A stretch of DNA of 22,011 bases, from positions 1 through 22,011 of the IMG/VR virus record IMGVR_UViG_3300009129_000097; one strand, given 5' to 3'. The notes below the pieces were generated by a model that saw nothing but the letters and a program-made list of their open reading frames with translations, was not told the origin of the DNA and made no database searches. A program made the translations under genes and the position numbers. This DNA comes from a virus. Positions 9,129 to 16,086 of the stretch are shown piece by piece. Positions within the stretch are counted from its first letter, which is position 1. Each line of letters begins with the position of its first letter.

Positions 9129-9878
9129 TTAGTTTCTTTTTTCTGGATTATCCAGAGATTCAATAAATTCGTTCAATTTTTTCTGTGTGACTGGTCCGAG
9201 TATTCCATCGGTGTATAAATTATTTTTTCTTTGAAATCGAGTGACCACCAATGCCGTTGACGGACCATAGAATCCATCAACAAATAGATAGTCTCTGATA
9301 GACCCTTTCGGTGTGGCTTCTGAAATCCAAGTATTTAATTTAAGTTGAATTCCTCGCACATCATCCCCGGTCGCAAACACATCGTAAACGTGTGCGCTGC
9401 TCTTCTTGGATGATGGATGATAATTTGCTCCTGCATTAAACTTTCCATATTCATTGAGATTCAAAATTCGTTTATAATCAAACACCGGACAAAGTTTACT
9501 CGAAACTTCTCGGTGCCCGCGAAAGGTAAGTTTCAAATCCCCATAGGCATCATTGATTTGCTTACATAAAAGAATCAATGCTTTATATTGGTCTTCTGTA
9601 AAATCTTCTTCATTCAGACCATGCAGACAAATTGCAATCGACCCGCGATTATATCCCTTCTGGGCGGCTGGAACCTTTTCTAAATCTCTACCCGATTGAA
9701 TGGTTCCGTCCGTGCGAATGAAATAATGATACCCAATGTCGGACCATCCCTTTTCGGTATGCCATCGTCGAATTACTTGAACATGGTCATGGAACGGGCT
9801 ATTACTCGCAGAGCAATGTAAGAAAACTGTGTTCACATATCTTTCTGGCATGACAAACTTAAAATGGTCATTTGCCAT
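9129..9878 (-). CDS. Endolysin: N-acetylmuramoyl-L-alanine amidase with C-terminal peptidoglycan-binding domain
   Basis: A 249-aa T7-lysozyme-like amidase that cleaves the MurNAc-L-Ala bond of peptidoglycan. Zinc ligands H21 (FLHCSAS), H122 (RGHREVSS) and C130, with Y50 and K128, match T7 lysozyme residues H17, H122, C130, Y46 and K128. A linker (about 145-165) leads to a PG_binding_1-type domain at about 170-237, including DGFYGPST and DGILGPVT repeats. There is no signal peptide, so release needs a holin; a candidate is at 2978-3154. The ATG at 9878 has AAAGGA 7 nt upstream and gives a T7-like N-terminus. The longer ORF to 9986 is a coding shadow of the small gene at 9868-10041. Confidence 0.93.
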   Translation of the reverse strand: MANDHFKFVMPERYVNTVFLHCSASNSPFHDHVQVIRRWHTEKGWSDIGYHYFIRTDGTIQSGRDLEKVPAAQKGYNRGSIAICLHGLNEEDFTEDQYKALILLCKQINDAYGDLKLTFRGHREVSSKLCPVFDYKRILNLNEYGKFNAGANYHPSSKKSSAHVYDVFATGDDVRGIQLKLNTWISEATPKGSIRDYLFVDGFYGPSTALVVTRFQRKNNLYTDGILGPVTQKKLNEFIESLDNPEKRN

Positions 9879-10041
9879 TCGTATTCCTTTCGAGTTCTTT
9901 TCTATCGGAGCATTCTGAACAAGCGTATAATGCTTCGGCCAAAACACGGTCATACCCAACATCGAGAGCAATTCTTTTAACTTCATCTACATCCTCTTCA
10001 CAAAAATCACAAACAAATCGACGTTCGTTAACTTCTTTCAT
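9868..10041 (-). CDS. 57-aa Cys-pair (zinc-ribbon-like) protein
   Basis: A small gene starting MKEVNERRFVCDFCEEDVDE and ending ERNTNGK. It has CDFC (11-14) and CSEC (43-46), two CxxC pairs in the arrangement of a small zinc ribbon. A strong SD (GGGGA, 5 nt before the ATG at 10041) supports it, and its end overlaps the amidase start by 11 nt, as is typical of coupled phage genes. The function is unknown; a role as a small regulatory or adaptor protein is a guess. It is the first gene after the terminator at 10059-10084. Confidence 0.75.
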   Translation of the reverse strand: MKEVNERRFVCDFCEEDVDEVKRIALDVGYDRVLAEALYACSECSDRKELERNTNGK

Positions 10042-12818: not shown

Positions 12819-13769
12819 TTACTTGTACTCCAATTCTACCATCAGTTCCGCAAGACACGCAACCAAGTTCAATTCCAAGTCGGCAACAAACGCAGACTTG
12901 TATTGATAATCTGCAATCTTGATTGCTGCCTCTGGAATGCTTTGCGGTTTCACATGACCATACAACCCATCAAAAATCATACGATAGATACGCGCAGGGT
13001 CATCATCCAGATTCTCTACCACCCACTTTCTCATGCCCTTGAAGTCTTTTGTCTTCAAATGCCCCATGAGCTTCTTTACCGACTGCTCGGTGATAGTCGT
13101 GAGAATCCCGGCATCAATCTCACCCGAAACTGAATACCTTTGCAGTTCATTGAGAACTCTTCGGAAGTCAGGAAAGTATTTTTGAATCAGTTCGACAATA
13201 ACCTTTTCATTATACTTTACGTTTTCCTTTTCGAGAATTTCAATAACTCGCTTCATCAGGCCCATTGCCAACTTCGGGCTTTCCTTCTTTGCAAACCGAA
13301 AATCAATTACACTACACCGAGAATGAATCGGTTCGATAATACGATTTCTGAAATTGCAAGTGAAGATGAATCCACAGTTCTTTGAGAATTCTTCGATGAA
13401 CCCACGAAGGGCCGGCTGCGTTGATTGGGGATTGAGATAGTCAGCTTCGTCAAGGATGACGATCTTGCGTTTTCCAGTAGAAGTTATGGAAACGGCTGAC
13501 GCGAACGAACGAATGTCGTTTCGCAGAGTGTCGATGTTTCCACTCTCACTTCCATTGATTAGAATATAATCAACACCCATCTGCTCACAGAGGGCCCGGG
13601 CAACCGTGGTTTTTCCCACACCAGCAGTTCCGCACAGAAGTAGATTAGGAACATCACCTTGCTTGACGAAATCAAGAAAGGTTTCTTTCAAGTTCTTTGG
13701 GAGAATGCATTCTTCAATTGTATGCGGTCGATACAACTGACTCCAAATAAAATCATCACGAAGTTTCAT
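12819..13769 (-). CDS. 44: Clamp loader large subunit (T4 gp44-like AAA+ ATPase)
   Basis: A 316-aa RFC-type AAA+ ATPase that with gp62 loads the sliding clamp. Walker A is GTAGVGKT (47-54), Walker B is IVILDEAD (103-110), sensor 1 is in FIFTCNFRNR (134-143) and the SRC arginine finger is at 150-152. The start YRPHTIEECILP (13-24) is typical. The length matches T4 gp44 (319 aa). A GAGG SD lies 10 nt before the ATG. The gene is preceded by a 179-nt non-coding gap with a structured hairpin and a TATAAATA element. Confidence 0.96.
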   Translation of the reverse strand: MKLRDDFIWSQLYRPHTIEECILPKNLKETFLDFVKQGDVPNLLLCGTAGVGKTTVARALCEQMGVDYILINGSESGNIDTLRNDIRSFASAVSITSTGKRKIVILDEADYLNPQSTQPALRGFIEEFSKNCGFIFTCNFRNRIIEPIHSRCSVIDFRFAKKESPKLAMGLMKRVIEILEKENVKYNEKVIVELIQKYFPDFRRVLNELQRYSVSGEIDAGILTTITEQSVKKLMGHLKTKDFKGMRKWVVENLDDDPARIYRMIFDGLYGHVKPQSIPEAAIKIADYQYKSAFVADLELNLVACLAELMVELEYK

Positions 13770-13803
13770 TTTATATTTGCCTCATTATCATTATGTATAT
13801 GCC

Positions 13804-13858
13804 GAACCTCATCGACCCACCGTGCCACAAAGGACAGCGATGGGTCGAGAGGGGGTTC
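13804..13858 (-). promoter_or_regulatory. Structured leader hairpin upstream of gene 44
   Basis: An imperfect hairpin with an 8-bp perfect core (13812-13819 with 13841-13848) and a 21-nt loop. It is extended by CCTC/GAGG pairing and then GAA/TTC pairing across small bulges. No U-tract follows on the minus strand, so it is not a simple terminator. It ends 34 nt before the gene 44 start codon and could act in translation control, RNA processing or stability. Confidence 0.5.
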
Positions 13859-13888
13859 AGCGTCGTTTTCACCACATTACTATAAAAC

Positions 13889-13896
13889 TATTTATA
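13889..13896 (-). promoter_or_regulatory. Candidate late promoter TATAAATA
   Basis: An exact late-promoter octamer in the gap between the porin gene and gene 44. Initiation about 6 nt downstream would give a leader of roughly 114 nt containing the hairpin at 13804-13858. A late promoter before a replication gene is unusual, so this could also serve other purposes. Confidence 0.45.
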
Positions 13897-13948
13897 ACGC
13901 TTTTCCTACTTTCCCGAAGGATTTTTTTCAGTCACACTAACTTTTTCA

Positions 13949-14980
13949 TTAAAACACTACTTGAACTCCCACAATTGCACCATCATTGCTTGGCCCACGC
14001 GCAGCATCTTCGTTGAAATACTGAACGGTAACCTTTGAACCTGCAAAATCAGCCAAGTTGAAGTTTGCACCCACATCAAACCGCTCGGTATCACCCGAAC
14101 GATATTCATCATAATCAAAACTCTGATAAAGGAAGAAGGGTTCAAATCCAACATTCAATGATGCAACCTTATGGACGTTTGCCAATGCAATTGAAGCACC
14201 TGCCGAAAAACCAGTTCCGGCATTGCGTCCAGAACCTTGATAATAACGGGCACCATCAAGGTCATAGTCTGCAAACGAAGCAGTAAGAGAAACTGTTCCA
14301 GGGTCAACTGTAGTGGTATAGAGTGCATCAACCCCAACCCCGAAAAAGTCCTTGTTGCCACGAAAGGCATCGTTCTGGGATTGAATGTTAATTCCCAAAG
14401 CCAAGCCTTCCAATGCTGCGATTGCAAGATCCACTCGCGCAGCAACCAGAGCATCGCCCCGTCCACCGTCGAACAGTCCTACGTTGTATGCAATGCCGAC
14501 ACCTTCGGCTGCATCTGTGGAACCAGAGAGTGCAACTCCGTCACCACGACCGAAGTCCTCTGGGGATGCCCACTTGGAAACCACGTTCGTTCCATCCCAA
14601 GTAGTCAGACCATAGAGGTTCTCCGATGCATTTCGGTCGGCAGGAATTAGAAACCGTCCAACCTTAACGTCTGCAAGATTCTTGTGTAATGAAGTACCAA
14701 GTGATGCATCAAGAATGTTCAAATCTGAACCATCATACTGAACAGACGCAAACGCATCAAAACCACCCTTCGATGCTGTTGCATTTAGACGAACATTCTC
14801 AAGGTCAAAATTGTTTCCATTGTCATCAAAAATTCCTGCGGCGCGTGACTCTGCACCCAATGCCACAGCGGTATCTCCGCTGGCGGCTGCTGCATCTTCG
14901 GCCGAAACGCTAACTGCGCTCAGACAAAATGCAAGTAATGTAACAAACAAACACTTACTAACGCTGCTAATACTACTCAT
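13949..14980 (-). CDS. Outer-membrane porin-like beta-barrel protein
   Basis: A 343-aa protein with a signal peptide. A hydrophobic core (CLFVTLLAFCLSAVSVSA) ends at a good cleavage site after A27, followed by EDAAAAS. The rest alternates short amphipathic strands with Gly/Asp/Asn turns, and the protein ends GVQVVF. The C-terminal Phe is the barrel-assembly signal of Gram-negative outer-membrane proteins. Segments such as FDLENVRLNATAS, FASVQYDGSDLNILDASLGT and DVKVGRFLIPADRN resemble phosphate-selective (OprP/OprO-type) porins. Its codons look more GC-rich than its neighbours, suggesting host origin. It has an AAGGAG SD, its own CTAAATAA promoter and a leader hairpin. No tail or fibre features are seen. 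Function (nutrient channel, receptor masking or other) is inference. Confidence 0.85.
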   Translation of the reverse strand: MSSISSVSKCLFVTLLAFCLSAVSVSAEDAAAASGDTAVALGAESRAAGIFDDNGNNFDLENVRLNATASKGGFDAFASVQYDGSDLNILDASLGTSLHKNLADVKVGRFLIPADRNASENLYGLTTWDGTNVVSKWASPEDFGRGDGVALSGSTDAAEGVGIAYNVGLFDGGRGDALVAARVDLAIAALEGLALGINIQSQNDAFRGNKDFFGVGVDALYTTTVDPGTVSLTASFADYDLDGARYYQGSGRNAGTGFSAGASIALANVHKVASLNVGFEPFFLYQSFDYDEYRSGDTERFDVGANFNLADFAGSKVTVQYFNEDAARGPSNDGAIVGVQVVF

Positions 14981-14997
14981 CTTGTTTCTCTCCTTAT

Positions 14998-15040
14998 ACC
15001 CAATGGGAAGCCCTGGAACTTCCGAGGCTTCCCATTAGGT
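14998..15040 (-). promoter_or_regulatory. Long hairpin in porin mRNA leader
   Basis: The minus-strand RNA forms a 15-bp stem (14998-15012 with 15026-15040, one G-U pair) and a 13-nt loop. It starts about 6 nt after the expected start of a transcript from CTAAATAA (15052-15059) and ends 3 nt before the porin SD. No U-tract follows, so a 5' stability or processing hairpin, or control of ribosome access, is more likely than termination. Confidence 0.65.
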
Positions 15041-15051
15041 CAGATTAAAGG

Positions 15052-15059
15052 TTATTTAG
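15052..15059 (-). promoter_or_regulatory. Candidate late promoter CTAAATAA
   Basis: The minus strand reads CTAAATAA immediately after the gene 45 stop TGA (15060-15062). It is 71 nt upstream of the porin start codon. It shares CTAAATA with the sites at 191-198 and 3194-3201. Confidence 0.42.
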
Positions 15060-15812
15060 TCATTCTGAAATGGTAGAAAGTTTGTGTTCTGCGGAAATCC
15101 AATATTCCACATCAACTTCCTTGTTTACAAAATGCCCAATTCCCTTGTTGGAAATCTTTACATCATAGTCTCCAGGGAAGAGAATAATATTGTCAACCTT
15201 GAAGGTCATGCAATATTTTTCAAAATTATCCCAGTTTTCCACCGACGAAGAGAACTCTTCAGAAAAGGAAACAGCCTTTCCATCCAATTCCAACTCAAAT
15301 GCATTGGATGCCTTTGGGTTTTCCTTGTCCGTCACGGCAAGAATAAGTCCACTCGCATCAGTTGTATGAATACAAATGTGCGGCAGCTTCATTGCCCCGG
15401 ATGCCTTCAAGAGTGTCTTCAAATCATCCTTCTTAATTTCAAATTGAATATCCCCATCTTCTGGAAAATCAACCTTGCCTCCATTCGGAGGTTGAGTCAC
15501 CAAGGTCGGGTCGGTGTATCCATAATTCACAGTATGTCGCGAATTACCTGCCTTGATCTTGACCGAGCTTTCATTGAACGTAAACTGAGGGTCTTCGAGC
15601 AAACTAATTGCACTCAGAAATTCATTCAACTGGTAAATTGCAAAATCACATGGGAACTTCTCATCCACCGATGCCCGGGCCAAGATGTTCTTGCCTTCGG
15701 AAATCGTAGAAAACTCAGACCCCTGTTTAATTGCAATCCCTTGATTGATTACAGAAAGGTTACTCAAAATCGAAAGTGTCTCTTCCGAAATACTCAATGA
15801 CGAAGATGCCAT
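15060..15812 (-). CDS. 45: Sliding clamp (T4 gp45-like)
   Basis: A 250-aa processivity clamp that forms a trimeric ring around DNA and, in T4, also activates late promoters. Family-typical segments include SISEETLSILSNLSVINQGI, FPCDFAIYQLNEFLSAISLL and NSRHTVNYGY. I chose the ATG at 15812 (MASSSLSISEE), which has a GGAG SD and follows the upstream stop by 1 nt; an in-frame ATG at 15836 overlaps the DUF3310 gene. T4 gp45 has 228 aa. The order 45 before 44 is as in T4, but the porin gene is inserted between them. Confidence 0.95.
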   Translation of the reverse strand: MASSSLSISEETLSILSNLSVINQGIAIKQGSEFSTISEGKNILARASVDEKFPCDFAIYQLNEFLSAISLLEDPQFTFNESSVKIKAGNSRHTVNYGYTDPTLVTQPPNGGKVDFPEDGDIQFEIKKDDLKTLLKASGAMKLPHICIHTTDASGLILAVTDKENPKASNAFELELDGKAVSFSEEFSSSVENWDNFEKYCMTFKVDNIILFPGDYDVKISNKGIGHFVNKEVDVEYWISAEHKLSTISE

Positions 15813-15813
15813 A

Positions 15814-16086
15814 TCACTTGTCTCCTTGTTTTCCATTACTAAAGTACATCATTAAAATAATATAGTGTGCAGCCTTCAATAAATCTTTTCTATTGAAGCC
15901 TTCTTTCTTTCCCAAACGAGCCAGATACTTCATTGCACTTGCCTGACAAAACGGCACGGCAATATCAATAGAGTGGAGAAGGTCTTGAATCTGAAATTCA
16001 TTCTTGCCAACATAATGCTGACCATATGTAGATTCAATATACTCTTCTATCTCCTTCAAACTTTCTTTCTCATTATATTTCATCAT
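15814..16086 (-). CDS. DUF3310-type conserved phage protein
   Basis: A 90-aa protein with the DUF3310 pattern. QHYVGKNEFQIQDLLHSIDI is followed by PFCQASAMKYLARLGKKEGF and RKDLLKAAHYIILMMYF. It corresponds to the small helical domain found across phages, whose biochemical role is not settled. It starts MMKYNEKESL; either of the two adjacent ATGs could be used, and no strong SD is visible. It lies between the glycosyltransferase and the clamp gene, and its stop is 1 nt before the clamp ATG, so it probably belongs to the early replication transcript. Confidence 0.85.
   Translation of the reverse strand: MMKYNEKESLKEIEEYIESTYGQHYVGKNEFQIQDLLHSIDIAVPFCQASAMKYLARLGKKEGFNRKDLLKAAHYIILMMYFSNGKQGDK

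Follow-up and report, generated by a model that had tools for sequence, protein, structure and literature searches.

The locus between gp45 and gp44

The window, that is, the whole stretch of DNA analysed, is the 22-kb virus record IMGVR_UViG_3300009129_000097 (positions 1 to 22,011), which carries T4-like replication genes on its minus strand. Within it, a 343-aa open reading frame with an ATG start (13949..14980, minus strand) encodes a porin precursor, as judged from its homology to a bacterial Porin_O_P protein, a 16-strand barrel predicted by AlphaFold2 and Foldseek matches to solved porins. The gene is flanked upstream by the sliding clamp gene gp45 (15060..15836, minus strand; phrog_223, E = 9e-58) and downstream by the clamp loader gene gp44 (12819..13769, minus strand; phrog_168, E = 3e-120), which agrees with the position given in the original prediction. 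By gp44, the closest annotated phages were Methylophilales phage Melnitz (59%), a Stenotrophomonas phage, cyanophages and pelagiphage HTVC008M. Since gp45 and gp44 lie only ~20 bases apart in Melnitz and HTVC008M, the porin ORF splits an ancestrally adjacent pair. The virus is a T4-like phage of a Gram-negative, probably marine host, the marine origin being suggested by its nearest relatives. An identical porin (100% protein identity) was found in three other contigs from other metagenomes, and one base differed between the two contigs compared over a 1291-base stretch; because of these near-identical copies, the ORF is not an assembly artefact. Elsewhere in the replication operon, an amidase-type endolysin with a C-terminal peptidoglycan-binding-like part (9129-9986, minus strand) lies by the DNA polymerase gene, and it appears shorter or replaced in contigs L117 and L118. 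In phages with gp44 at 81-85% identity to that of the window, the sliding clamps (15060-15836 in the window) are only 42-55% identical to one another; gp45 evolves much faster than gp44 there.

Directly after the gp45 stop lies a late-type promoter element of the porin gene, CTAAATAA (15052..15059, minus strand). A motif of this type is by itself within chance in the window (2 matches vs 1.02 expected). Equivalents (TATAAATAA or CTAAATA on the coding strand) were present 49-166 bases upstream, usually near -80, in all 12 viral porin copies examined; the case for a late promoter would thus rest on the constancy of the motif across genome contexts, not on its rarity in the window. The element is followed by a leader hairpin with a 16-bp outer stem and a short inner stem (14999..15040, minus strand), whose folding energy of -32.6 kcal/mol was equalled by 0 of 200 shuffles (z = -5.7), and by the ribosome-binding site AAGGAG (14990..14995, minus strand). 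Most viral homologues have this ribosome-binding site, and most have a strong hairpin between it and the promoter.

The 3' edge of the porin cassette is marked by a late promoter of gp44, TATAAATA (13889..13896, minus strand), which aligned in the relatives with a porin in the same slot. In the gp44 leader (13770-13900, minus strand), the late promoter TATAAATAG is followed by (A)GACGCTGAACCCCC and a hairpin, an arrangement common to the in-slot relatives, and the leader part was also kept in two relatives in which the slot is empty (L038 and L040). The leader had no match in Rfam and is possibly a conserved RNA element; a tRNA scan and an Rfam scan found nothing. With a promoter of its own and a leader that is retained where the slot is empty, gp44 forms a resident unit, and the porin unit was inserted upstream of it. 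These results support the earlier view of the gene as an independently controlled cassette with its own promoter and hairpin.

Porin homology and predicted fold

On inspection, the N-terminus of the protein, MSSISSVSKCLFVTLLAFCLSAVSVSA followed by EDA, looked like a signal peptide. The probable Sec signal peptide comprises residues 1-27 with cleavage after VSA (14900..14980, minus strand), and the viral homologues have N-termini of this type that align with it. The C-terminus (...AIVGVQVVF) agrees with an outer-membrane beta-signal; G-x-x-hydrophobic-x-F was found at the C-terminus of nearly all 11 viral copies, with the terminal F invariant.

The window porin had no direct match in Pfam, PHROGs, NCBIfam or PDB sequences. 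Profile searches gave the same outcome: the general-porin Pfam families did not match the window protein, and Porin_O_P (PF07396) matched neither it nor seven viral homologues at E ≤ 1. A six-frame search (tblastn) of 72,556 plasmids returned one match for the window porin, on a Niveispirillum plasmid (E = 8e-8). The Niveispirillum porin is 28% identical to window residues 53-343 (BLASTP pairwise E = 1e-16) and scored above the Pfam Porin_O_P cut-off (31.4 vs 20.9 bits). Furthermore, a profile of eight viral homologues matched it in hhalign with a probability of 99.5 and E = 1e-22. By full-length homology to an accepted member, the window protein can be classed as a remote member of the Porin_O_P superfamily.

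AlphaFold2 with only three sequences gave a pLDDT of 31, and a deeper alignment of 11 viral sequences was used instead, which yielded a 16-strand barrel (mean pLDDT 72, pTM 0.69). Foldseek matched this model to V. cholerae OmpT, Omp32, OprP, OprO and OmpF at E values of 1e-9 to 1e-6 (OprP 2e-8, OprO 4e-8, OmpF 8.5e-7). There were 192 PDB matches at E ≤ 1e-3 and, among the matches listed, nearly all were bacterial porins; in the viral library, the model matched an uncultured siphovirus protein named phosphate-selective porin O and P. Porins fold a constriction loop after strand 5. In the model, strand 5 is followed by a loop of 33 residues (112-144, IPADRNASENLYGLTTWDGTNVVSKWASPEDFG; 14549..14647, minus strand), placed at low confidence, which by topology and conservation is the probable constricting loop L3; P.DR, W and VVS in this candidate loop are shared with the cellular porins of urea operons.

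Since homology to a Porin_O_P protein is joined by a 16-strand barrel like those of OprP, OprO and OmpF, the window protein is almost certainly an outer-membrane porin. The original prediction of a phage porin was thus borne out through the Niveispirillum intermediate and the predicted structure: no non-barrel fold and no homology to a virion family emerged, and the best matches were solved 16-strand porins. Its OprP/OprO-like segments were not confirmed by sequence, and OprP and OprO are linked to the protein only via the intermediate and the structure. A late promoter would also suit a component of the virion, as opposed to a protein in the infected cell's membrane, but the signal-peptide-like N-terminus, the beta-signal C-terminus, the porin homology and the 16-strand barrel all speak against this, no PHROG structural family was matched, and we consider a virion role extremely improbable.

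Viral homologues, genome positions and selection

Both gp44 and the porin alignment served as queries to gather homologues from IMG/VR; most of the viral contigs are fragments, and neighbour genes without a family match were named by reading their sequence. The porin family spans at least 10 T4-like virus lineages, with 27-88% identity between mature parts. Seven lineages hold the porin in the 45-44 slot (the window, L031, L033, L034, L035, L036 and L037), and the slot lacks it in nearby relatives (L038-L041, gp44 74-82% identical). Elsewhere the porin occupies four positions, each with its own late promoter, making at least five genomic contexts in all: after a DNA methyltransferase-like gene and the gene of a 1531-1619 aa Gly-rich protein in L004 and L006 (in L004 a secreted endonuclease I follows), between HNH-like and glutaredoxin-like genes in L115/L116, shortly after phoH in L119 and after a methyltransferase-like gene in L120. 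The inserted position between 45 and 44 is supported, but the picture of a single phage porin in an unusual place is too narrow, for the gene belongs to a family of T4-like viruses. A tblastn search with the window porin and one homologue gave no match in 50,697 phage records, a collection from which the family is therefore missing. Stretches resembling GRF[LIV][IV]PADR, sought with a degenerate motif, occurred only in unrelated proteins besides the known loci.

Several neighbours and contigs deserve separate mention. The Gly-rich protein directly upstream of the porin (L004:1281-5876, L006:895-5754) had no family match and is possibly a tail adhesin. L006 (DTRI01000197.1) is filed in the Flavobacteriales MAG UWMA-0021 and is probably a mis-binned phage contig; it was rejected as evidence of a Flavobacteriales host, having the viral L004 gene order, and 98 other Bacteroidota genomes gave no match. 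Secreted nucleases were found as cargo, namely Endonuclease_NS in the 45-44 slot (L067:2657-3535) and Endonuclease I beside the porin (L004:7139-7897); exported proteins recur as cargo in the slot or beside the porin in related phages.

In the porin tree, the window and L004 copies are sisters despite their different genome positions, and the L119 porin groups with two cellular porins (100/100); in this tree, which holds two cellular sequences only, viruses may have acquired the porin more than once. Among in-slot phages, gp44 is 79-96% identical and the porin 38-96%, with slot copies only 38-48% identical to the window porin beside gp44 at 81-85%. Because L118 and L113 share 92% of gp44 and only 39% of the porin, while the porins of L118 and L117 are 56% identical, porin alleles have probably been exchanged in the slot. 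Within alleles, dN/dS in the mature part was 0.11-0.24, and the porin is under purifying selection. With T4-like flanks, some ten lineages, this dN/dS range and cellular homologues, the porin is a host-derived, non-virion auxiliary gene in a genuine viral genome.

Porin divergence beside a conserved gp44 could reflect receptor-type selection or allele swapping instead of a nutritional role, and both receptor replacement and an envelope change are possible. Under the main rival explanation, a late phage porin would dilute or mask the host receptor porin, so that sister phages cannot adsorb. The Lc protein of lambdoid phage PA-2, a phage-encoded 16-strand porin, acts so on OmpC and is a functional precedent; PA-2 is temperate and Lc a general porin of OmpC type, whereas the window porin is of Porin_O_P type in T4-like genomes. 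Superinfection exclusion of this kind would fit a porin far more divergent than its neighbours, the apparent allele exchange (L118/L113/L117), the possible adhesin adjoining the porin in L004/L006 and loops trimmed relative to the cellular homologues. However, the predicted outer loops were hardly more variable than the strands (1.48 vs 1.28 bits, with 1.85 bits in periplasmic turns), unlike the loops of a receptor in an arms race; dN/dS is well below 1, the cellular relatives found are urea-operon porins, and one sister phage adds AmtB. We therefore regard receptor replacement as a minority possibility. Extra barrels might alternatively weaken the outer membrane before release, to which the late-type promoter and the secreted nucleases, close to the porin in L004 and in the 45-44 slot in L067, would lend themselves; the conserved pore loop and purifying selection argue against such a lysis aid, no link to holin or spanin genes was seen, a urea-porin ancestry would be needless for it, and it appears very unlikely.

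Possible links to nitrogen uptake

The two full-length cellular homologues found both sit at urea-transport genes. On the Niveispirillum cyanobacteriorum plasmid, the porin gene lies directly upstream of urtA and then a urtB-like gene, and in Methylosinus trichosporium OB3b (WP_003612718) it lies directly upstream of urtABCDE-ureD; as both come from the plasmid collection (n = 2), the apparent urea link might stem from the kind of porin that plasmids carry. The phage porin resembles these proteins along its full length, in the GR-L-P-DR, W, VVS and GR-DG residues in or around the constriction loop and in the C-terminal F. It differs in being ~45-55 aa shorter (with a trimmed loop and turn in the region from strand 7 to strand 9) and more acidic. 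The urt linkage of the two cellular homologues is not shared, since no urt or fmd transporter genes were linked to the viral porin, and neither UrtA nor P-II genes were found on the 25 viral contigs searched, most of them fragments. Against the ExtI porin family of Geobacter (NF040900), the cellular homologues scored 105-115 bits and viral L119 75 bits, all below the 150-bit cut-off, and the window protein had no match.

In a sister phage (L033/L114, gp44 84% identical), gp45 is followed by the porin, a small membrane protein, AmtB (PF00909, E = 1e-105) and gp44. AmtB adjoins the porin in this one viral population only; L032 was dropped as a second independent case, since it seems to represent the L033 population again and its contig breaks off within amtB. 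T4-like contigs carry two different AmtB genes, one beside the porin in the 45-44 slot (L033:2726-3982) and one before a gp47-like nuclease gene (L122:1471-2637). From the ETSP oxygen minimum zone, two viral contigs have been described that carry glnK and amtB together with a porin gene named ompL (Gazitua et al., PMC8115048). In those contigs, too, a viral porin gene lies by an ammonium transporter gene, and the genes were interpreted as nitrogen-uptake auxiliary genes. By description, the only level at which we compared them, they differ in having no reference virus in their cluster and in the name ompL; no PII gene was found near the porins of the present family.

FmdC has been described as a urea/amide porin (Mills 1997, as cited in PMC7078480 and PMC5877670), and the same papers report a urea/amide-type porin in comammox nitrifiers. 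The proposed function of the phage porin is like that of FmdC, urea-type porins being associated in these papers with the use of urea and amides; the likeness is at the level of description. That Melnitz, the nearest cultured phage by gp44, infects Methylophilales fits this comparison. Substrate induction, as the papers give it for FmdC, cannot apply to a phage late promoter.

The mature porin contains 20 Lys/Arg vs 43 Asp/Glu, and this acidic composition would speak against anion selectivity. Phosphate uptake of the OprP/OprO type, one of the roles suggested originally, found no support: this excess of acidic residues runs counter to expectation for an arginine-ladder channel, and the closest identified cellular relatives are urea-operon porins. 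The protein resembles OprP and OprO of Pseudomonas aeruginosa in superfamily name and barrel fold (Foldseek E = 2e-8 and 4e-8), but with at most 15% identity in the structural alignment, an acidic rather than arginine-rich character and no phosphate context. More broadly, a general or phosphate channel might offset the loss of host porins or feed nucleotide synthesis. The Pfam name Porin_O_P, the presence of OprP and OprO among the structural matches and the L119 gene shortly after phoH could be read in this way. Yet no sign of an arginine-rich channel was seen in this strongly acidic protein, OmpF, OmpT, Omp32 and OprP match the fold at similar scores, so that the fold does not indicate phosphate, and a single phoH adjacency is weak because PhoH is common in T4-like marine phages. 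A nutrient porin unrelated to nitrogen is thus unlikely.

We favour an auxiliary channel in the outer membrane that would be expressed late and pass small nitrogen compounds, because of the urea-operon relatives, AmtB in a sister phage, the published precedents and the acidic protein, and we give this role an even chance. An identity of 28% does not fix the substrate, and late expression would leave limited time to help uptake, which counts against a nitrogen role. In the nitrogen-channel model, gp55-type late transcription from CTAAATAA would yield a hairpin-headed mRNA late in infection; after export by Sec, the porin would be folded by BAM as an outer-membrane barrel of 16 strands, acidic overall, whose outer loops are short and whose inward loop is conserved. 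The barrel would raise permeability to small nitrogen compounds that are uncharged or cationic (urea, short-chain amides, ammonium/methylammonium), which may feed host inner-membrane transporters or, in the sister phage, the phage's own AmtB, and nitrogen supply would continue while the infected cell makes new phage DNA and protein. Somewhat more tentatively still, and at less than an even chance, we propose that in a whole uncultured T4-like lineage a dedicated, streamlined urea/ammonium porin forms a late cassette, complete in itself, which changes position and swaps alleles, and that viruses thereby control both membranes of nitrogen uptake, with porin and AmtB together in one member.

Phage porins are already known, including those of the glnK-amtB-ompL contigs; what is new here is the porin family and its genomic context. 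Pfam, PHROGs and NCBIfam all missed this family, and annotation therefore overlooks such genes. Most known viral auxiliary genes for nutrient uptake concern the inner membrane (AmtB, FocA). If the nitrogen model is true, the porin would be the first defined component by which viruses capture nutrients at the outer membrane. A porin family that recurs in this way would be evidence that T4-like phages likewise remodel the outer membrane, which is both the first barrier to solutes and the surface that phages bind, and it makes a question testable: does the phage alter the passage of solutes across the outer membrane of the infected cell, or which phages attach to it?
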